In this document: in pieces, positions 1,502 to 41,020 of the stretch
How positions within the stretch are numbered: the stretch's first letter is position 1
Layout of the letters: every line of letters begins with the position of its first letter
Source of the DNA: an uncultured Rubrobacteraceae bacterium
GTDB taxonomy: Bacteria > Actinomycetota > Rubrobacteria > Rubrobacterales > Rubrobacteraceae
Assembly (NCBI GenBank): GCA_902806095.1
Contig: CADCVF010000005.1
Span: 1 to 54,306 of the forward strand
Reading direction: 5' to 3'
Length of the DNA stretch: 54,306 bases
Program-made: the position numbers and the translations under genes
The notes under the pieces: model-generated
Database searches by the model: none
Told to the model about the DNA's origin: nothing
Seen by the model: only the letters and a program-made list of their open reading frames with translations

Positions 1502-3142
1502 GTGGATGAAATCAGGAAACGCCTAAGCGATTTGTCATCGCGTTTAGCTTCTGTTGGACGAGTGCGGTTATTGGTAAGCCTCGTCGTAGTCCTGTTCTTG
1601 GCGTGGCTGGTGTCTCCGGTCTTCCACGGCCTGGCAATGGCAGTGTATGTAAACTGGCCTTTCTTCCTTATGGTTGTGGGCGGTACGGTTTTCGGTGCTT
1701 ACCTATGGAACATAGGGGATAAGGACCCAGCCAAGATAGTGGCAGTAGTTGCCGCCATCGCAACCTTGGCCTATCTATTCGCGTCCGCGCCTCTACGGGA
1801 ACTACGGTACTTAGACTCCATAGAAGCTCAAGAGATCAAGGAGATGCCCGACACAACGGGGTTAAGGTTTCTCCCGTACGATGTTGCAGCGCGTTTCGGG
1901 CAGAATACCCAGGACGAACCTACCCTGATGCTTGGGGATTTCGAACCCTTAAGTAACGGCGAGGGTGGGATAGATTGGGTGGCCCCAAGAGAACCCAATG
2001 GTCTCTACAACTCCCTAGTCAACAATCAGGACGGGGTCATGGTCATCCAGCCCGATGGGTCGGCCGAGACCATAAGGCAGGAATTCAAGCGGGGCGAGGG
2101 CATGGCCCTTTACAGGAACGTCGGCTGGCAGCTCAAGAGAGAGAAGTTCTTCGCCCACCATACGAACCAGTACTACGTTCTCGACGGAGAAGAGCTACTC
2201 GGGGTAGTCCCGTATATAAGCTACAGGTTCTCTTTCCCGGTGATGGTTCCTAAGTGGGGTGGAGTTTTGGTCGTTCACCCCGATGGAGAGATAGAGAACC
2301 TCTCTCCCCAGGAAGCCATACAGGATGGGCGCTTCGAAGGAGAGCGGCTCTATCCCGAGCTGTTGGCGAGGAAAGTGGGCGACGTCTGGAAGTACCGCAA
2401 CGGCTACTGGAATACCTGGTTTGCCCACGAAAACGAGGCCCAAATCCCTCAGATAGATCCACCCGAGGACCAGAACACGCTTGATGAGCAGCCTGCTACT
2501 TCTCAGGGAACCTCGACCAACCAGATGCCCTTCCTCATCCCTACAGGAGACGGGCCGCAATGGTTCCTGGCCGCCGAGCCCTACGGCAGGAGTTTCTCGA
2601 TGTACCAGGGGATCTACGTCGATGCCCACCGCGGCGAGATCAACTACTTCAAACCCGACACGGGCAGCGCCTTGATCGGGGTCAACAAGGCCTTGGATTA
2701 TGCTCAGGCTACCTTCCCCAATTACCAATGGGGTCTAAACGCGGTCATACTCGAACCAAGGCCGGTAGTCAAAGACGAGACCCTCTACTGGATGGCCACT
2801 ATCACCAACGCCGACAAAGCGGGGGTTAACCAGACCGTCATGGTCAACGCTTCCAAGCAGGGGGAGGTAACGGTTCTGGAGACCTACGAGGACGTGGTGG
2901 CCTTCGTTGAGGGTGAGGATACCGGTCAGACGGTAAACGTCGAAGGTGGTGATACCTTGGGGGCATCCGAGGAAGCGCCTGCAACATCAGGGACCGAAAT
3001 ACCGGAAGAGCAACCGGCACAACCGGGAAATCGTGCTGGTTCCCAAGAAGCCCCGGTCGATGTCTCTGAGATGAGCGACGAGGAGCTTATCAGAATCATA
3101 AGCGAAGCGGCTAACGAGTTAGAGGGCAGAAAGGAAGAGTAG
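1502..3142 (+). CDS. Large membrane-anchored protein of unknown function
   Basis: A 546-residue protein starting at GTG, with AGGGAGG about eight bases upstream. Three hydrophobic segments (about residues 22-45, 48-70 and 75-95) are followed by a long hydrophilic region, probably outside the membrane. This region holds two related-looking stretches, VVHPDGEIENLSP (near 262) and VDAHRGEINYFKP (near 375), and an acidic, low-complexity tail rich in E, T and P. I do not recognise the family. Base composition is less GC-rich than the neighbours, and an insertion element follows directly, so the gene may be a recent acquisition. The three N-terminal helices suggest a membrane complex component, but nothing shows its role. 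Confidence 0.75.
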   Translation: MDEIRKRLSDLSSRLASVGRVRLLVSLVVVLFLAWLVSPVFHGLAMAVYVNWPFFLMVVGGTVFGAYLWNIGDKDPAKIVAVVAAIATLAYLFASAPLRELRYLDSIEAQEIKEMPDTTGLRFLPYDVAARFGQNTQDEPTLMLGDFEPLSNGEGGIDWVAPREPNGLYNSLVNNQDGVMVIQPDGSAETIRQEFKRGEGMALYRNVGWQLKREKFFAHHTNQYYVLDGEELLGVVPYISYRFSFPVMVPKWGGVLVVHPDGEIENLSPQEAIQDGRFEGERLYPELLARKVGDVWKYRNGYWNTWFAHENEAQIPQIDPPEDQNTLDEQPATSQGTSTNQMPFLIPTGDGPQWFLAAEPYGRSFSMYQGIYVDAHRGEINYFKPDTGSALIGVNKALDYAQATFPNYQWGLNAVILEPRPVVKDETLYWMATITNADKAGVNQTVMVNASKQGEVTVLETYEDVVAFVEGEDTGQTVNVEGGDTLGASEEAPATSGTEIPEEQPAQPGNRAGSQEAPVDVSEMSDEELIRIISEAANELEGRKEE

Positions 3143-3205
3143 CCATCTGAGAGCCGGCGCGGTGCTCTTCAGTCCGGGGTGTGTAGTTACGAGAGTTGAG
3201 GCGAG

Positions 3206-3230
3206 AAAGCCTCCCGCTTTAGCGGAGAGG
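3206..3230 (+). repeat. Left-end hairpin of the IS608-like element
   Basis: The guide AAAG (3206-3209) is followed by a stem formed by 3210-3217 and 3222-3230 with loop TTTA and one bulged A at 3226. A bulged base in the stem is a feature of TnpA-recognised hairpins in IS608. Confidence 0.8.
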
Positions 3231-3295
3231 ATGAATCGCCTACGTGCATCGCAAACAACGTGCTTTCGCCCCTTCCGGTGTGCTACATTGTGTTT

Positions 3296-3694
3296 ATGAC
3301 AATAGGCTACAGACACAACAGAGGGTCGGTTGTCATGCTTAAGTATCATCTCATCTGGGTACCTCGCAGACGGCGCAAGGTGTTGGTCGGAGCCGTAGCG
3401 CACAGGCTTGAAGCGTTGCTCCGCGAGAGAGCCAAAGCGCTTTCCGTCGAGATTGAGCATCTTGCCATCAGGCCCGACCACCTGCACATGTTTGTCAATG
3501 CGCCTCCGTCTCTGGCGGTTAGTCAATTGGTCTACAGGTTCAAGGGCCACACGTCGCGGGTGCTTCGGCAAGAGTTCGCTCACCTTCGGAAGATGCCGTC
3601 CATGTGGACCACCGCATACTTTGCGACAACGGCGGGCCGAGTGTCGGAGGCGACGATTCACAACTACATCGAAGCTCAGAGCACGAGAGCCTGA
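3296..3694 (+). CDS. tnpA: IS200/IS605 Y1 transposase TnpA
   Basis: A 132-residue HUH-type tyrosine transposase that cuts and rejoins single-stranded DNA at the element's hairpin ends. The metal-binding HLH motif is in RPDHLHMFV, and the catalytic tyrosine is in the C-terminal helix (HNYIEAQ). The start is placed at the ATG at 3296 because the protein then begins MTIGYRHNRGSVVML, matching the family's short N-terminus, although the frame opens further upstream. Its TGA (3692-3694) abuts the ATG of tnpB, so the two are probably translated from one transcript. The length is normal for the family, so it looks functional. Confidence 0.9.
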   Translation: MTIGYRHNRGSVVMLKYHLIWVPRRRRKVLVGAVAHRLEALLRERAKALSVEIEHLAIRPDHLHMFVNAPPSLAVSQLVYRFKGHTSRVLRQEFAHLRKMPSMWTTAYFATTAGRVSEATIHNYIEAQSTRA

Positions 3695-4858
3695 ATGAAG
3701 CTGCGGAAGGCCTACAGGTTCAGGATGCGTCCCACAAAGACTCAGGAGGTCGGTCTGTACCGCATGGCCGGAGCGCGTCGGTTCATCTACAACTGGGCAT
3801 TGAGTCGGCGCAAGAGTTACTACGCCGAACACGGCAAGGGCATCTCTGCCAGAGAGCTCTCCTCGGAGTTGACCGCGCTCAAGAGTAAGCCTGAGACGCT
3901 CTGGCTCAAGGAAGCCGACTCGCAGATGCTCCAGCAGGCTCTCAGGGACGTGGATAGGGCCTTCGAGGCGCTCTTCAAGAGGCGTAGCCGCTTCCCCCGG
4001 TTGCGCTCCAAGAAGGCCGGACACTTCACTTTCCGTATCCCCCAGCGCGTCAGAGTCGAGGACGGCAGGGTATACGTCCCGAAGGTAGGTTGGGTTCGTA
4101 TCCGTCAGTCCAGAGGAGTCGAAGGAACGACCAAGAGCGCGACCTTCAAGCGAGACGCTACGGGACACTGGTACGTTGCCCTGACGACCGAGTTCGAGAT
4201 TCCTGACGTAGAACCCCCTGCTCCGGTCAACCCGGTCGGGGTAGACCTCGGTCTCAAGGACCTGTTCGTCCTCTCCGATGGCGAGCGCGTCCGGGCCCCT
4301 CGGTTCGCGAGGACGGCCGAGCGGAGGCTCGGGAGGGTTCAGAAGGACCTCTCCCGGAAGAAGCCGGGTAGCCGTCGCAGGGAGAAAGCGAAGCGCCGTG
4401 TGGCTGGGGTGCATCGCAAGGTGTCGAACCAGAGGAGCGACTTCCTCCACAAGCTGACGACCGACCTGACGCGGGAGTACGACTGTATCTGCCACGAGGA
4501 TTTGAACACGAAGGGGCTTGCGAAAACCAAGCTGTCCCGTTCGGTCCTCGACGCTGCCTTCGGCGAGTTCGTGCGTCAGGTCGAATACAAGGCCACGTGG
4601 AGCTTCAAGCACAGCGTCAGGGTCGGACGCTTCTTCCCGTCCGCAAAGCTCTGCTCCGAGTGCGGCAAGGTTAATGTGAACATGACGCTCTCGGACAGGA
4701 TGTGGCTCTGTGAATGTGGGACTCAGCACGATAGAGACCTGAACGCCGCCAGGAACATCCTGGCCGAAGGAATGAGACTGCTCGCCGCTGGACAGACGGA
4801 GAGCCAAAACGCTCGTGGAGAGCCTGTAAGTCTTCCCAGGGGAAGCACGGCTCGATGA
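3695..4858 (+). CDS. tnpB: TnpB, RNA-guided RuvC nuclease of the IS605 element
   Basis: A 387-residue TnpB (OrfB). In related elements this protein is an RNA-guided DNA nuclease that cuts the empty donor site and so favours retention of the element. The N-terminal part carries the typical RFRMRPTKTQE and FIYNWAL motifs. The RuvC catalytic residues appear as GVDLGLK (D), CHEDLN (E) and HDRDLNAARNI (D). The zinc ribbon is CSECG with CECG. All key residues are present. The last part of the gene together with the right end should encode the guide RNA scaffold. By analogy with ISDra2, whose target-adjacent motif equals the insertion target, TTAC is predicted here. Confidence 0.92.
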   Translation: MKLRKAYRFRMRPTKTQEVGLYRMAGARRFIYNWALSRRKSYYAEHGKGISARELSSELTALKSKPETLWLKEADSQMLQQALRDVDRAFEALFKRRSRFPRLRSKKAGHFTFRIPQRVRVEDGRVYVPKVGWVRIRQSRGVEGTTKSATFKRDATGHWYVALTTEFEIPDVEPPAPVNPVGVDLGLKDLFVLSDGERVRAPRFARTAERRLGRVQKDLSRKKPGSRRREKAKRRVAGVHRKVSNQRSDFLHKLTTDLTREYDCICHEDLNTKGLAKTKLSRSVLDAAFGEFVRQVEYKATWSFKHSVRVGRFFPSAKLCSECGKVNVNMTLSDRMWLCECGTQHDRDLNAARNILAEGMRLLAAGQTESQNARGEPVSLPRGSTAR

Positions 4859-4896
4859 ACCGAGAATCCCGCCGCTTTAGCGGATGGGAGCGTCAA
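4700..4896 (+). ncRNA. Predicted omega/reRNA scaffold of TnpB
   Basis: In IS605 elements the TnpB guide RNA spans the 3' end of tnpB and the right end, and its guide is copied from the flank immediately beyond the element. Here the scaffold would end at TCAA (4893-4896) and the present guide would be read from 4897 onward. The 5' limit is only approximate. The right-end hairpin (4868-4888) is the one element I can see directly. Confidence 0.5.
4864..4896 (+). repeat. Right-end hairpin and cleavage site of the IS608-like element
   Basis: The guide GAAT (4864-4867) is followed by a stem of CCC/GGG and CCGC/GCGG around a TTTA loop, then the cleavage site TCAA (4893-4896). This matches the IS608 right-end code. 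Confidence 0.8.
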
Positions 4897-5418
4897 TAAT
4901 GTCAGTTACTACATTGGAGGAAGCGGAAGGGGAGGGAAAGAAACCCCTCACCATCTAAGGGGAACGCCAGGATGCGGCGGGTAGGGTGTCCCCCCGTTCC
5001 TTCAGATTAAGGGGAGCCGCCGGGTGGCCGGTCCCGCGCTCCCCGACCTGCGGGCGCTACGCCGGGGCGAGTATGTGCAAAGTGAGGCTAACAAAAGCTA
5101 ACACCTTACCCCAGTCCGGGCGCCCACCCCGCGCGGCGCTGCCCTCACGTCCCCTCAGGTTTTGGACGTCGAGGTCTCGGGGATGCCCGAAGAGACGGGG
5201 CGCTAAGATAAGAGATCCGCAAGGATGCAGCCCTGCCTGGAAGTCATCCCATAAATACCACCCAGGCTGGGCAGGAAGATAAACGCTCAGCTCAGATCGA
5301 TCTCGAAAGGGCGAAAAAACGCCAATTAGAGCAAGATCATCAAGTGTATTCTCTAGCAAAAAAGGGAACAAAAAGGAGAAAACCGCCGCGGCGACGACAA
5401 GAGAGACAGGAGAGGATC
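4897..5418. other. Gene-free stretch
   Basis: No convincing gene. The first bases are the right flank of the IS element, so joining 3190 to 4897 rebuilds the empty site. Short GC-rich inverted segments occur around 4950-5030 but form no clear terminator or known riboswitch. The stretch just before the next gene is A-rich and may hold its promoter. Confidence 0.5.
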
Positions 5419-5928
5419 TTGAGCGATTTGAGCGATAAGGTAGTGCCAGAGGATGTCTTTGAAGGTTACGGGGGCGAAAAAGAGAGTCTCTACTCTTACT
5501 CGGCTCTTATGGGCATCTTTAGCCTGATCTTCGCCCTCTTCCTTCTCTTGTCCCGGCTCACAGGACGCCCCATCCCTGAGCGGATAGAGGCGAGGGACAT
5601 CGCGCTGCTAGGAATGGCGGCCCACAAAATGAGTATGGTTGGCTCCCAGGATGCGATCATGAGCCCCCTGCGCGCCCCGGTAACCGAGATCCAAAAGAAG
5701 GAGAGCCCCAAAAAGGTGGACGAGCAGCCAAGGGGCGAGGGCCTTAGGAGGTCCATAGGCGAGCTGCTCACATGCAAGTTCTGCCTCGGCGTGTGGTTGG
5801 CCTCCTTTTTGACCTACGGCCTCGTGCTCGTGCCGCGCCTGACCCGCCTCATAGCCGCCCTTTTCGCCGTCGTCACCGTCTCGGATTACCTCCACCAGAG
5901 CTACAAGATACTCATGAAGAAGGCATAG
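5419..5928 (+). CDS. DUF1360 membrane protein
   Basis: A protein of about 169 residues. The C-terminal half reads as DUF1360: DIALLGMAAHKMS, a SPLRAP motif, then GELLTCKFCLGVWLAS with the conserved CxxC, and a last hydrophobic helix before VSDYLHQ. One hydrophobic helix lies near the N-terminus. I choose the TTG at 5419 because AGGAGAGG sits just upstream. An ATG at 5344 would add 25 basic residues but has no ribosome site. Members are small membrane proteins of unknown function, often near spore-coat or stress genes. The sequence shows no operon partner. Confidence 0.8.
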   Translation: MSDLSDKVVPEDVFEGYGGEKESLYSYSALMGIFSLIFALFLLLSRLTGRPIPERIEARDIALLGMAAHKMSMVGSQDAIMSPLRAPVTEIQKKESPKKVDEQPRGEGLRRSIGELLTCKFCLGVWLASFLTYGLVLVPRLTRLIAALFAVVTVSDYLHQSYKILMKKA

Positions 5929-6005
5929 CGGTGCGGGACGCTAGTCCGCAAGGCGTCACGTTACGGAGGCCTCCTCCGGAGACTACTGCCACGCTAGGAG
6001 CACTT

Positions 6006-6031
6006 CCCTGAGGAGGAACCCTGAGGAGGAA
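6006..6031 (+). repeat. Two tandem copies of a 13-bp unit
   Basis: CCCTGAGGAGGAA occurs twice head to tail (6006-6018, 6019-6031). Each copy contains a ribosome-site-like GAGGAGG, but no gene starts directly after it. It may be a slippage product. Confidence 0.7.
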
Positions 6032-6175
6032 GGTTGCAGACTAACGGGGCCAAAGAGGTGAGGAGAGCTCCCTACTTATTTATCCATTTCCTGCTTGGGG
6101 GTGCTGAGGGAGTCCTGTAAATTAGCCCTTTAGGAGCAGGGAAAAGCATCATTCTGAATGGACTGAGGAGTTTTG

Positions 6176-6622
6176 ATGAGCGAGGACCGGAACGAAGTGG
6201 TCGTCCGCGGAGACGGAGAAGGCTTACACCACGAAGTCTTCGTCGGATCGCACCGGCTGGCGGCGGACGAGCCACCAGAATCGGGAGGGTCCGACCGGGG
6301 GCCCAACCCCTACGATCTACTGCTTGCGTCTTTGGGGGCGTGCACGGCGATGACCCTCACGATGTATGCCCAAAGGAAAGGTTTGCCTCTCCGAGGCGTC
6401 ACGACCCGGCTTCGACACTCGAGAATCCACGCCGACGACTGCGCCGAGTGCGAAACCGAGCAAGGGAGGATCGATTCGATCGAGCTGACAATCGAACTCG
6501 ACGGGCCCCTTAGCGATGAGCAACGCTCTAAACTCCTCGAGATCGCCCGGAAGTGCCCGGTACAACGCACCCTGACCTCACAGAAGGTCATCGAGATTCG
6601 CTCCGGTGGCGAATCCGGCTAG
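6176..6622 (+). CDS. OsmC/Ohr-family protein
   Basis: A protein of about 148 residues, the usual OsmC length. The first conserved cysteine is in LGACTAMTL and the second in KCPVQRTL. These are the redox pair used by OsmC/Ohr proteins to reduce organic hydroperoxides with thiol cofactors. The central NPYDLLLASLGAC motif is typical. The ATG at 6176 is preferred over the TTG at 6173 because GAGGAG (6165-6170) is then five bases away. Both cysteines are present, so it is probably a working cytoplasmic peroxidase-like enzyme. The presence of two further Cys (CAEC) places it nearer the OsmC-like/YhfA side than Ohr. Confidence 0.9.
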   Translation: MSEDRNEVVVRGDGEGLHHEVFVGSHRLAADEPPESGGSDRGPNPYDLLLASLGACTAMTLTMYAQRKGLPLRGVTTRLRHSRIHADDCAECETEQGRIDSIELTIELDGPLSDEQRSKLLEIARKCPVQRTLTSQKVIEIRSGGESG

Positions 6623-6867
6623 GCTCTCTCTGAGAACGATGAAGAATAATTTTGCTGCTAGGCTGCTACCACGGTAGGACGATACGAACTCTACCCCGTG
6701 CTACCCTCCTCCGCGTGTCTGGACGAGGACTTCCAACTCCGAGTACTCTCCATGCCCAGTCAACAGGGCTCGGAAGCGCACCCCCGCCGGCGCGATTGCA
6801 CTCTGACCACGACTAGTGTCTAATGTGGCAAGGGATATCTCGATAACGAGCATGGAGGAGGGTGAAG

Positions 6868-8145
6868 ATGGCGGACGTGGCTAATGAGCGCGAGCCTAGA
6901 ACCGAGGTTCCTTCCACCTTCGGGAGCCGGCTCAGGATCGTGGGACCGGGGTTGATCATAGCGGCTACCGGTGTGGGGGCAGGGGATATGGTCTCCTCCC
7001 TGAACGCCGGCACGGTGTACGGCACGATCTTCCTCTGGGCTATCATCGTCGGGGCGATCGTCAAGTTTTATCTCACCGAGGGGATAGGACGCTGGTACAT
7101 GGCAACTGGCTACACCATCCTCAAGGGCTGGCGCTCACTCGGGCGGTTCGTGAGTGGTTTCTTCGTTGTCTACCTCCTGATTCTGACCTTCGTCTTCGGG
7201 GCGGCGGCCATGTCTGCCGCTGCTCTCGCATTCACCGCGATGTTCCCGATCCTTCCCCTCTGGGCCTGGGCCGTGCTCCACGGTATCTTCGGCTTCCTGA
7301 TCTGCATCACCGGCCGCTACGGGCTCTTCGAGCGGGTGATGGAGGTCTTTGTGGCCCTGATGTTCGTCACCATCGTGGGGCTGGCGATCCTGCTCGCCCC
7401 GAACCTCGGAGAGCTTGCCGGCGGCCTCGTGCCAACGCAGTTCCCTGAAGGCTCCCTGCTCTCTGTACTCAGTCTAATCGGGGGGGTGGGAGCGACCTTC
7501 ACGCTCGCCTCCTACAATTACTGGGTGCGCGAGCGCGGCTGGGGTTCTCCTCCCTGGATCCCGATGATGCGCCTGGACCTTATCGTCGGCTACGCCTTGA
7601 CTGCCCTATTCATGGTGGCGATGCTGGTCGTCGGGGCAGAGATTCTCTTCGCCAGCGGCGAGAGCATCAGCGAAGAGGCAGGGCTCGTGGCGCTCGCTGA
7701 TCCTATACAGGAGCGCTTCGGCGTCGTCGCGCGCTGGCTCTTCCTCATCGGCTTCTGGGCCGCCGCGACCAGCTCGATAGTCGGGGCCTGGAACGGCTCG
7801 GCCTACCTCTTCGCCGACGCCGTGCGGACATCCCGCGACGTACCGGACGAGAGGGCCGAGGAGTACCTCTCGGAGAAGAGTGTGTACTTCCGGGCGATGT
7901 TGGTCTGGATCAGCTTCCCGTCCATGCTCCTGCTCTTCTTCGGCGAGCCGGTACTCCTGATCATTGTCTACGCCGCCATGGGTGCCTTGTTCCTGCCCTT
8001 CCTGGCCATAACGCTCCTCTGGCTCCTGAACTCCCGGCGCGTGGCGCCGGAGCACCGCAACGGGATCGTCGCGAACATAATCCTGGTAGCCTCGGTGTTG
8101 CTCTTCGTTTTTCTCGGGATACAAGAGGTACTCGGTGCCGCCTGA
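6868..8145 (+). CDS. Nramp-like metal-ion transporter with divergent motifs
   Basis: A protein of about 425 residues with 11 or so hydrophobic helices and the Nramp opening GPGLIIAATGVGAGD. In classical Nramp proteins TM1 carries DPGN, which binds Mn or Fe. Here the aligned residues are GAGD. TM6 normally holds MPH, but here the equivalent helix reads GGVGATFTLASYNYW, with no MPH. The fold is therefore Nramp but the substrate is probably different, as in the Nramp-related magnesium transporters or uncharacterised side branches. The ATG at 6868 is chosen over the GTG at 6862 because GGAGGAGG (6854-6861) then has normal spacing. CTCG-ATAA-CGAG at 6839-6850 just upstream is a small palindrome of unknown meaning. 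Confidence 0.85.
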   Translation: MADVANEREPRTEVPSTFGSRLRIVGPGLIIAATGVGAGDMVSSLNAGTVYGTIFLWAIIVGAIVKFYLTEGIGRWYMATGYTILKGWRSLGRFVSGFFVVYLLILTFVFGAAAMSAAALAFTAMFPILPLWAWAVLHGIFGFLICITGRYGLFERVMEVFVALMFVTIVGLAILLAPNLGELAGGLVPTQFPEGSLLSVLSLIGGVGATFTLASYNYWVRERGWGSPPWIPMMRLDLIVGYALTALFMVAMLVVGAEILFASGESISEEAGLVALADPIQERFGVVARWLFLIGFWAAATSSIVGAWNGSAYLFADAVRTSRDVPDERAEEYLSEKSVYFRAMLVWISFPSMLLLFFGEPVLLIIVYAAMGALFLPFLAITLLWLLNSRRVAPEHRNGIVANIILVASVLLFVFLGIQEVLGAA

Positions 8146-25830: not shown

Positions 25831-25904
25831 GCGAGCTTCAGAGAACGCCCACAAGGCGAAGTCCGCAGAATTCAACTTGCCACGCCCTCGGGTGAACAAG
25901 GCTG
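25831..25904 (+). repeat. Family A repeat, copy 15 (two units plus cap)
   Basis: Units at 25831 and 25856 (25-base period), then CAACTTGCCACGCCC and TCGGGTGAACAAGG. Confidence 0.8.
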
Positions 25905-25936
25905 TCTCGGTGTCCGTATATACGGGTGAGCACCTT

Positions 25937-25991
25937 TTTGGGGCTCGGCGAAGGAAGAATGAGAATGTTGGGACAACCGCCGAGCCTCGAA
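25937..25991. repeat. Family C stem-loop element, copy 1
   Basis: GGGGCTCGGCG (25940-25950) pairs with CGCCGAGCCTC (25978-25988), with one G-T pair in the stem. An inner hairpin GTTG-GGA-CAAC (25967-25977) directly abuts the 3' arm. The same structure occurs at 40967-41020. Confidence 0.8.
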
Positions 25992-26060
25992 CACAGAGGC
26001 GAACCTCTGGCCTATTAGATACCCATACCATTGAAGTAGAATCCAAAAACATGAGTGAAG

Positions 26061-26085
26061 TGGTACGTACTCGGGTGAATGGCCT
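26061..26085 (+). repeat. Partial family A cap, copy 16
   Basis: GTACGTACTCGGGTG and AATGGCC match only the end of the family A cap. It is the last trace of the family before the transposon. Confidence 0.5.
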
Positions 26086-26096
26086 CTGCGCTACTC

Positions 26097-26173
26097 TCAG
26101 GACTCGGGGCGGGCCGCCTTCTCCTCGGCCCACTCAAGGGCGTAGTCTGCGACCTCTTCTCTGTACCTATTCG
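26097..26173 (-). pseudogene. 3' remnant of a gene cut by the transposon
   Basis: The minus strand reads ANRYREEVADYALEWAEEKAARPES and then TGA (26097-26099). The frame is coherent up to the transposon end at 26174 and then loses sense. The 5' part is not found on the other side of the transposon. Confidence 0.45.
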
Positions 26174-26197
26174 CAGGGTAATTATACCTTGACTGTA
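26174..26197 (+). repeat. Left terminal inverted repeat of the transposon
   Basis: Matches 28751-28774 in inverted orientation at 23 of 24 positions. The mismatch is the third base from the outside. Confidence 0.85.
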
Positions 26198-26223
26198 TAA
26201 GTGCATTGTAGTACTATATTGGC

Positions 26224-27159
26224 TTGGCACCTGGAAACCGCAAAGATCCGCAGAATTACAAGCCTTCGGACTCGCAGTACTCGCTCATGGAGTTCATGCG
26301 CGAGTTTCCCGACGACGACGCTTGCCTTGAGTGGCTTTGGCGCAATCGCTTCTCGCCGCGTGGTGATTCGGCTTACTGCCTGAAGTGCGAGACTCAGCGC
26401 ATTCATCGCCGCTATGGGACGAAGCAGCAACGCCAGTCCTGGACGTGTATCCATTGCGGGCATCACCTGCACCCTACAGCGGGGACGATCTTCCACAAGT
26501 CCTCTACCTCGTTGCATCTGTGGTTCTACGCGATGTATTTAATGACTAGCACCCGCTGCGGCATCTCTGCCAAACAACTAGAGCGGGAATTTGGCGTTAC
26601 CTACAAGACAGCTTGGCGCATGGCGAAGCTCATCCGTCAGGAGTTAATGGTCCAAGACAATCAGCCGTTCGGCGGCGAAGTCGAGATGGACGAAACCTAT
26701 GTCGGCGGGCGTCGTCGTGGCGACAAGCGTGGGCCTCCCTCTGAGGACTCGCACAAGACGCCTGTTTTCGGAATGGTGCAGCGCCGTGGTCGAGTCGCCG
26801 CGATGCCAGTTCGCAACGTCAAAGCAAAGACGCTCATGCCGCACGTCCGTAGGAGGGTGCTGCCGTCCTCTGTTGTCTACACAGACGAACTCAGGTCATA
26901 CGATGGCTTGAAGCGTCGGGGCTACCAGCACGAGCGCATACATCACGCCGAGCAAATCTACGTAAGTGGAGACGTTCACACAAACACCATAGACGGGTTC
27001 TGGTCACTGGTGAAGCGCGGCATAAACGGCGTCTATCACGCGGTTTCAGCCAAGCACTTGCACGGCTACTTAAACGAGTACACCTATCAGTGTAACAACC
27101 AAGGCAAGAACGGCGACCAGTTCAGGAAGCTACTGCTTCGGTCTGCCCTTAGTCACTGA
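26224..27159 (+). CDS. IS1595/ISXO2-family transposase
   Basis: A protein of about 311 residues. The N-terminal zinc ribbon is CLKCETQ with CIHCGH (residues about 58-83), and TAGTIFHKSSTSLHLWFYAMYLM follows, as usual. The DDE-type core shows VEMDETYVGGRRRGDKRG (first Asp) and VVYTDELRSYDG (second Asp). HTNTIDGFWSLVKRG holds the position where most members have Glu (TIEGFW); here it is Asp. That change may weaken catalysis or be tolerated. The TTG at 26224 has no clear ribosome site, and the ATG at 26287 is a plausible alternative. It opens the transposon, 27 bases inside the left repeat. Confidence 0.9.
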   Translation: MAPGNRKDPQNYKPSDSQYSLMEFMREFPDDDACLEWLWRNRFSPRGDSAYCLKCETQRIHRRYGTKQQRQSWTCIHCGHHLHPTAGTIFHKSSTSLHLWFYAMYLMTSTRCGISAKQLEREFGVTYKTAWRMAKLIRQELMVQDNQPFGGEVEMDETYVGGRRRGDKRGPPSEDSHKTPVFGMVQRRGRVAAMPVRNVKAKTLMPHVRRRVLPSSVVYTDELRSYDGLKRRGYQHERIHHAEQIYVSGDVHTNTIDGFWSLVKRGINGVYHAVSAKHLHGYLNEYTYQCNNQGKNGDQFRKLLLRSALSH

Positions 27160-27294
27160 ATCGTTGCTCTTGGACACCCTTTGGAGGTTGCGCATGAACT
27201 CACCGCGCTTGGGGACGGGTATCTCCAAGCCCTTATCGGTCTTTTGGCTTGACTCGCCTTCTTTGGCGAGCTTCTTGCTACGCCTGTCTGCCAT
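27130..27294 (-). CDS. 54-residue passenger protein with GLEIPVPKRGEF motif
   Basis: A short gene on the strand opposite to the transposase, which it overlaps by 30 bases at the 3' ends. It begins MADRRSKKLAKEGESS and has KGLEIPVPKRGEFMRNL in the middle and a polar tail ending GRPKQ. GGGGA lies shortly before the ATG at 27294. From memory, short proteins with a GLEIPVP core sit near ISXO2-type transposases elsewhere; this should be checked. The compositional coherence and the transposon context argue for a real gene. The function is unknown. Confidence 0.6.
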   Translation of the reverse strand: MADRRSKKLAKEGESSQKTDKGLEIPVPKRGEFMRNLQRVSKSNDSVTKGRPKQ

Positions 27295-27315
27295 AATGTC
27301 CCCATTCTATCAGCC

Positions 27316-28101
27316 ATGACCTACCAGCCAGTCTACCAACTCAAGCTAGACCGAGCCGCCGAACACCTGAAGAGCATAGAGACGCAAGAGCGAGTCTAGC
27401 GTCAGGGAAATCCGTGTAGAGTGTGGACCGAGCCGGACATCCAGAGCGGCGACAAGCTCGTGTGGGCCGAAGTCCTCAAGCCTCCGCCCATCATTCTCGC
27501 CCCCATCGTCGGGGACTTCCTCCACAACCTCAGAAGCGCCCTCGACAACCTCGCCTACGAACTCGCCGTCGCACACAAGGGTTCCAAGATGTCCAAAAGC
27601 ATCGCCGACCACTCCGGTTTCCCCATTTTCACAGATAAGGTTAGGTTTGACAAACACGGTGGGCCCAAGATCAGGTGTGTACATCCCGACGCCCGGACAT
27701 TCATCGAGCGATTGCAGCCGTACAACCGACGGGACATACCTGTAACCGCTGACGCCCTCTGGCAGCTCAGTGTGCTCTCCAATAGCGACAAGCACCAGCT
27801 TCCGCATTTCGCGGTAGCCGCGCCCCATCAATTCACCATTCTCTCTACTCCCCCGAGCGACGCTCGGGGAGTCGAGTTCTTCACCGAGCCGTTTGAAGAT
27901 CGCGCAGTAATCGCGAGGCTGGTGATCCCCCTCGGAGCCCACGCGGAAGTGAGCATGCAACGACCTCCTACCTTCGGCATAGCCTTCGGAGAGCGTTCTC
28001 CCGATATAGTCCAGACATTCGGGGTCTTGAGAATTCTCACCCACATCCAACGGTACGTAACCGAACGGGTAGTCCCGCCGCTCGTCAAGGATCTCGCCTG
28101 A
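27316..28101 (+). pseudogene. Passenger gene of HNLRSALD family interrupted by TAG
   Basis: One frame runs from the ATG at 27316 to the TGA at 28099-28101 but has an in-frame TAG at 27397-27399 after 27 codons. Both sides make sense together: a first helix (LDRAAEHLKSIETQER), then TEPDIQSGDKLVWAEV, then GDFLHNLRSALDNLAYELAV, a well-recognisable block of an uncharacterised family. The rest continues normally (LQPYNRRDI, LSVLSNSDKHQLPH) to about 260 residues in all. A truncated product could start at the GTG at 27421. The function is unknown. The interruption suggests decay of the cargo or amber readthrough. Confidence 0.7.
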
Positions 28102-28187
28102 GATCATTTTCCTCCAATAGAAAAGCGGCCCCCGAAGGAACCGCCGATTCGCAAAGAAGCGTCCCCGGTTTCCCGAGGCCTACCTGC

Positions 28188-28478
28188 TTAGGCTGTCAAT
28201 CTTCTTCCGCGTATCACATCTAGATTCGCAAGGAACGCTCGCGGGCTGGCTACCTCGCGTGGTTTGGGAGGTTCTATCGGCAAGAAGTACTCAGCCGGGT
28301 ACAGGTAATCCTCGCCGCTGTCGTCCACCACACGTATCTCATCGTATCTCTCAGCGTTCCTATCTGGCAGAACCCGATAGAACTTCTGCGGTTGCAGCGA
28401 TTCGGGATATTCACCGCTGTCGACGCACAGCGCGAACACCGCATCACCCCGTCTTCCCGTTACGCTCATCCGCTCCAT
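28188..28478 (-). CDS. Small passenger protein, second of a coupled pair
   Basis: A 96-residue protein starting at the ATG at 28478, whose A is the last base of the upstream gene's TGA (TGATG). It reads AVFALCVDSGEYPESLQPQKFYRVLPD, then IRVVDDSGEDYLYPAEYFLPIE and a polar end. It looks like a small beta-rich domain with a short tail (AFLANLD). I do not know a function for the family. The TGATG overlap means translational coupling, so the two proteins probably act together. Confidence 0.7.
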   Translation of the reverse strand: MERMSVTGRRGDAVFALCVDSGEYPESLQPQKFYRVLPDRNAERYDEIRVVDDSGEDYLYPAEYFLPIEPPKPREVASPRAFLANLDVIRGRRLTA

Positions 28479-28720
28479 CAATCCAAATCCCGCTTGATCT
28501 TTTCTTTCCTTCTCCCGATGCCTTGTGCCTCGTACCAATGCAGTTCCACGAACCGGATTTCCCCTGTATTGGTCATCTGTATTGTAGCTTTACCCTTGCA
28601 TTTGCGCCACTTACCCCGACCGTAGCTTTCTTGAAGCCTAGCCAGCTCATGAATCTTGTTGCCTACCGCTATGGTTTCACGATTGCGTATCTGCCCGATA
28701 ACGGTAAACCTGGACACCAC
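28478..28720 (-). CDS. Small passenger protein, first of a coupled pair
   Basis: An 80-residue protein starting at GTG. It begins VSRFTVIGQIRNRETIAVGNKI and has WRKCKGKATIQM, then IRFVELHWYEAQGIGRRKEKIKRDLD at the end. The HWYEA-GIGR-KIKR ending is distinctive and, as far as I recall, occurs in other small uncharacterised bacterial proteins. The gene overlaps the start of the next one. A two-gene, tightly coupled unit on a mobile element invites comparison with toxin-antitoxin pairs, but nothing in the sequence proves that. Confidence 0.7.
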   Translation of the reverse strand: MVSRFTVIGQIRNRETIAVGNKIHELARLQESYGRGKWRKCKGKATIQMTNTGEIRFVELHWYEAQGIGRRKEKIKRDLD

Positions 28721-28750
28721 ACCATTCTACAAAGACCTACTGGGCGTTTC

Positions 28751-28774
28751 TACAGTCAAGGTATAATTACCTTG
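28751..28774 (-). repeat. Right terminal inverted repeat of the transposon
   Basis: Inverted copy of 26174-26197 with one mismatch. It ends 14 bases before the stop codon of the enolase-superfamily gene. Confidence 0.85.
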
Positions 28775-40850: not shown

Positions 40851-40966
40851 TCCGTTTCTACTTAACGCTGTGGCGGCACTCCACTTACGAATCAACCCAA
40901 GAGGGAGGAGCTTCTCTACTAATTGCTCCCCAGGAATGCCCTCGTATCCGCGGAGGTAGGCATCTC

Positions 40967-41020
40967 TTCGGGGCTCGGCGAAGAAAATGAGATCTGTTGG
41001 GACAACCGCCGAGCCCCGAA
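40967..41020. repeat. Family C stem-loop element, copy 2
   Basis: A perfect 14-bp stem (40967-40980 with 41007-41020; core GGGGCTCGGCG) encloses a GTTG-GGA-CAAC hairpin (40996-41006) that abuts the 3' arm. The 40709-41186 gap contains this element, the hairpin at 40807 and a family B copy, but no gene. Confidence 0.85.

Follow-up and report, generated by a model that had tools for sequence, protein, structure and literature searches.

A probably immobile copy of a cargo-carrying IS1595 transposon that appears to enclose a host gene pair

The common picture of an insertion sequence is a transposase and nothing else. In the IS1595 family, ISApl4 is a simple insertion sequence of 712 bp with 8-bp direct repeats (PMC12561309). 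The family also includes transporter elements (tIS) with passenger genes. Among these, tISCpe8 and MTnSag1 are described with 25-bp repeats and 8-bp duplications (PMC5704250), and ISNha5 is named as a passenger-carrying element (cited in PMC11891212 after Siguier et al. 2009). An IS1595 transposon with passenger genes is a known kind of element.

The elements that we describe here resemble such tIS in their IS1595-family DDE transposase, terminal inverted repeats of about 25 bp, 8-bp target duplications and passengers unrelated to transposition. They differ from tISCpe8, MTnSag1 and ISNha5 in that they carry other cargo, with no resistance gene, possess a clade-specific small gene (p54) and have a left end with a -35-like TTGAC. 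The clade-specific small gene is new, and as far as could be found the p54 clade and its exchangeable cargo are undescribed. One copy departs further from tIS as presented there: it has no target duplication and also encloses what looks like a host gene pair. It lies in the window, the whole stretch of 54,306 nucleotides that was analysed, and consists of the following features.

26177-26197, + strand: left terminal inverted repeat, GGTAATTATACCTTGACTGTA; the same terminus occurs in delimited relatives with exact 8-bp target duplications
26189-26217, + strand: sigma-70-like promoter TTGACT-17-TACTAT, a consensus match only; inside the left end and just ahead of the transposase start
26224-27159, + strand: IS1595 transposase (Pfam, NCBIfam), 311 aa, TTG start (ATG in the related element L002)
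27130-27294, - strand: p54, a basic protein of 54 aa; in 16/16 elements of the window's transposase clade
27316-28101, + strand: HNL, an HNLRSALD-family gene, about 260 aa if intact; in-frame TAG at 27397-27399
28188-28478, - strand: p116, 96 aa from the ATG at 28478, second gene of the putative host pair; not in the conserved element
28478-28720, - strand: p80, 80 aa, GTG start, first gene of the pair; one-base overlap with p116 (TGATG)
28751-28771, - strand: right terminal inverted repeat, 21/21 identical to the window's left end; keeps the left-end-like TTGAC

The original prediction, an IS1595-type transposase between inverted repeats, is confirmed by both parts of this arrangement. The transposase matches Pfam DDE_Tnp_IS1595 (PF12762, 3.7e-43) and NCBIfam transpos_IS1595 (NF033547, 3.2e-62), both above the cut-offs, and by family it would be a DDE recombinase. 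Its catalytic positions are D156, D221, D257 and K264, of which D156, D221 and K264 are invariant, and C52, C55, C75 and C78 form a zinc ribbon. The nearest named transposase comes from a Dehalococcoidia assembly (70%). All four predicted further genes are also present: p54, the interrupted HNL, p116 and p80, the last two indeed coupled through their overlap.

The inverted repeat is real, although not in the predicted 24-bp form. That version (26174/28774) has one mismatch and runs 3 bp past the family's GG terminus on each side, as judged from relatives, whose ends begin GG[T/C]AA. The 21-bp core has none. Chance would produce such an exact pair within 3 kb at a rate of about 7e-10 per site, so coincidence is not the explanation. 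The window ends are of the family type and align with those of 19 relatives.

To place this copy in its family, we drew on a collection with one genome per species and took the 80 loci whose transposases are closest to that of the window. At each locus we searched for an exact 8-bp duplication bordering matching ends. We found one at 43 of the 80 loci, compared to 0-1 of 80 in a control in which right-hand regions were exchanged between loci. The 43 elements have a median length of 2.3 kb and 42 of the 43 are longer than 1.5 kb, while the transposase alone takes up about 0.95 kb. Cargo is therefore the rule in this transposase group. This sets the group apart from simple, single-gene IS1595 insertion sequences such as ISApl4, with which it shares the transposase family and the 8-bp direct repeats.

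The window's transposase belongs to a 16-member clade in a tree of 51 transposases (support 99/98). A p54 profile detects the gene in all 16 members and nowhere among the remaining 37 delimited elements (53 elements in total). The p54 consensus is TQxTxKGxEIPVPKRxxFxxxLxKxAK. HNL is present in 11 of the 16. The recurring unit is transposase, the small antisense gene p54 and usually HNL. L002, from the same family as the host, holds only these three genes in 1,965 bp and is bordered by a perfect target duplication, TAACGCAA. In the remaining cases p54 accompanies an HNH-like gene (L022, L025 and L037; so labelled from reading the sequence, with no Pfam match), a DUF4145/PD-T7-4-like gene (L026) or an unmatched gene (L023). 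As a separate observation, L023 contains at 2032-3533 an IS3-type insertion (two overlapping frames, by eye) nested within the larger IS1595 element.

Cargo also varies in another clade. L070 and L079 come from one assembly (elements 4796-7211 and 4796-7377) and share the target site, the target duplication, near-identical ends and an 87%-identical stretch of transposase. Their cargo genes are dissimilar. Cargo is thus exchangeable, and comparison shows the same for the cargo gene of the p54 clade. Across a whole section of the IS1595 family, elements normally bear an additional gene or a few of them and swap these between near-identical chassis. In this way they act as compact carriers that transfer genes across phyla, and a search for uncharacterised genes, possibly of defence, has a well-defined starting point in their cargo.

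Which of the window's genes are cargo? p54 and HNL move with the transposase, as a module, in several phyla. HNL also occurs without a transposase in many genomes. An HNL profile search of 296 genomes of the host's own phylum found the gene in 24. A transposase is present at seven of the 27 HNL loci (in one case partial); p54 stands without a transposase at another seven, several of which are at contig edges, and the last 13 lack both. One transposase-less locus is common to two genomes of the host's genus (L101, L102), between an Rrf2-like gene on one side and a chromate-transporter-like gene on the other (both by eye). HNL is followed there by a degenerate right end (GTGCTGCCGTCAAGGGGATAAGTGCC), so the locus looks like a transposon that lost its transposase. 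Between these two genomes dN/dS is 0.52 for HNL and 0.58 for p54, compared to 0.07 and 0.11 for the neighbours. HNL is also broken in several copies. Given this and the loose evolution of both genes, HNL is readily lost. In the window, the stretch that holds the TAG is an open frame in relatives, and the frame is open again downstream (27421-28101, 226 aa).

The pair p80-p116 behaves differently: it is not seen to travel with the transposase. p80 occurs in 11 of the 296 genomes. Cargo genes in the same order without transposase and repeats had been named in advance as the finding that would speak against a four-gene cargo, and this is what we see for the pair: beyond the window, 12 loci have p80 followed by p116 on the same strand, and all of them lack a transposase. 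One of the 12 is a second copy in the host genome (L145). Of the other 52 delimited elements, not one contains the pair. Furthermore, the L002 element is inserted inside p116 of such a pair, and the p80 beside this insertion has stops and is decayed. The 12 transposase-less loci and the independent insertion into the pair leave a single four-gene cargo unsupported. What stands of the prediction is an IS1595 transposon with p54 and HNL as travelling cargo. p80-p116, judged from its distribution, is a chromosomal host gene pair and not regular cargo. In viral contigs a scan with p80 matched two contigs and one with p116 matched none; a plasmid search with p80 matched one record.

The flanks of the window copy set it further apart. 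Its left flank ends in ..TATTCGCA and its right flank starts with TTGCAACA. An 8-bp target duplication is absent (ATTCGCAG on the left against TTGCAACA on the right), even when one mismatch is allowed. By sequence the element belongs to the IS1595 family, but this copy may not have arisen by a simple transposition. It is single-copy in the host genome. We did not find an empty target site; the sole relative with the right flank (G007, 86%) is on a contig that ends 34 bases past the aligned stretch, and a short search with the left flank gave no convincing homologue. Two things can be seen to the left of the element. A minus-strand reading frame (ANRYREEVADYALEWAEEKAARPES*) at 26099-26176 enters the left end, and no start for it was found beyond the element, which gives the impression of a host gene that was cut and partly lost; a search with this frame gave no convincing homologue. 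In addition, a dispersed repeat lies at 25880-26064, just left of the element, and at 40960-41020; copies of the stretch left of the element are found at several other places in the host genome (83-86% identical), with similar ones in genomes of the same genus.

The ends themselves are unusual. Within relatives, left and right ends agree at 15-20 of 21 positions, compared to 21 of 21 in the window copy. TTGAC occurs in 13 of 19 left ends but in only one of 19 right ends (Fisher p = 1e-4), a bias that presumably reflects the role of the left end in driving the transposase. In the window copy TTGAC is present in the right end as well. A classifier of left and right ends is noisy (leave-one-out 16/19 and 11/19). 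A right end that bears TTGAC and is identical to the left, together with the missing target duplication, suggests a left-type end from another copy.

We therefore favour, with a probability of about 0.65, the reading that this cargo-carrying IS1595 transposon is a damaged copy, probably no longer mobile, in which a host pair became enclosed by a rearrangement of the ends. The conserved element measures about 2 kb and runs from the left end with its own promoter through the transposase, p54 antisense to the transposase tail and HNL divergent from p54 to a right end. It would move by DDE transposition with an 8-bp target duplication, as relatives do. p54 and HNL are its passengers, p54 marking one transposase clade. 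p80-p116 would be a host two-gene operon that is enclosed in the window copy only. Most likely, the original right end next to HNL was lost and a left-type end from another copy took its place beyond the pair. Gene conversion would explain equally well why the two ends are identical. The signs of damage are the missing target duplication, the TAG in HNL, the left-type right end and the third catalytic residue, which is D257 in the window and E in 47 of 51 relatives. The last change also occurs in three delimited relatives (L025, L026, L028) and hence does not prove inactivity. A remnant of the original right end is not detectable in the 106 bases scanned after HNL. The best candidate for a relic there is among the highest-scoring 0.8% of window positions; chance alone would produce this within 106 bases, so we rejected it.

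Alternatively, the pair was captured before insertion, all 2.6 kb moved together as a genuine four-gene unit and mutation later erased the target duplication. Intact ends enclose all four genes, relatives of up to 4.1 kb do hold several cargo genes, and HNL and p116 run towards each other into terminator-like hairpins, in the manner of settled neighbours. However, such a unit would have to be single in its genome, be the one delimited element out of 53 that contains the pair, carry a right end of left type and have lost the duplication beyond recognition with one mismatch. We consider it unlikely. The damaged copy with an enclosed pair remains our preferred reading, and it is a caution that a position inside the repeats is not proof of cargo.

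The cargo had also been said to have the look of a defence or addiction module. HNL, p80-p116 or both would then be toxins or abortive-infection proteins, with p54 or p116 as neutralising partner. This impression finds no direct support in the window: for its cargo, searches with PADLOC, Pfam and NCBIfam yield nothing at E <= 0.01, and no toxin-like fold scores significantly. The AlphaFold model of HNL (pLDDT 81) consists of long helices, and that of p80 (pLDDT 92) shows two strands followed by a helix and three more strands; neither has a PDB fold match better than E 0.5, and PDB sequence searches with HNL and p80 gave no match. HEPN toxin chains do recur among the non-significant fold matches of HNL (7ae8, 7ae9, 7bxo and 6m6w; E 4-8, TM 0.33-0.41 of the target). 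The conserved HEPN motif is R-x4-6-H; RSALDH in HNL fits it as R-x4-H in most relatives, with the His replaced in five of 15 rows, including the window (N). Neither partner matches a known toxin or antitoxin family in sequence or fold, as a type II toxin-antitoxin pair would. For the group as a whole the idea is not far-fetched: p54 always adjoins the cargo gene and is divergent from HNL and from the cargo genes of L022, L025 and L037, and cargo in relatives includes a PD-T7-4-like protein, solitary methyltransferases, PIN, SocA and HTH/Gp49 genes. The PD-T7-4-like protein (PADLOC PD-T7-4-like, Pfam DUF4145) sits beside p54 in L026, but HNL, p80 and p116 do not match PD-T7-4. Next to the second copy of p80-p116 is a 686-aa protein that reads as a HerA-type ATPase (by eye only). 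Against such roles, HNL and p54 evolve loosely in the two transposase-less relics, HNL is readily lost, and in L002 p116 is disrupted and p80 has decayed along with it. Either role may apply to the group; for the window cargo we regard both as unlikely.

A bolder version concerns the whole clade: a widespread compact group built on a constant chassis (left-end promoter, transposase, p54), with one exchangeable slot that takes a single anti-phage or toxin-like gene (PD-T7-4-like, HNL, HNH-like), where p54 would be a generic small regulator or antidote of the adjoining gene. We offer this as speculation, with the odds heavily against it.

The p54 protein is, in our judgement, probably unstructured. 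It may regulate or partner the divergent cargo gene. It could instead be a transposition accessory, for example a transposase regulator, and no cargo partner. This is quite conceivable, if short of an even bet, and compatible with the damaged-copy reading. In its favour, the elements with p54 are precisely the 16 of one transposase clade, regardless of which cargo they carry, and the 3' end of p54 overlaps that of the transposase. However, in L026, L032, L037 and L211 other genes lie between p54 and the transposase and p54 still adjoins the cargo gene. Other IS1595 clades (L053, L064, L068, L070, L079) have their own basic gene of 44-60 aa, divergent at the 5' side of the transposase, possibly a counterpart of p54.

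Two further observations were made in passing. At L145 (3500-8100), p80-p116 directly follows two large genes of 686 and 388 aa, the former without a Pfam match; by eye they may be a HerA-type ATPase and a NurA-like protein, a context that occurs around DNA repair or defence genes. Many IS1595 elements of Acidobacteria (L058, L067, L070, L071, L078, L085, L091, L097) carry proteins with MTVCIAA/MTIGIG-type starts, and the two that were tested (L058 and L067) match the Pfam Proteasome family weakly but above the cut-off.
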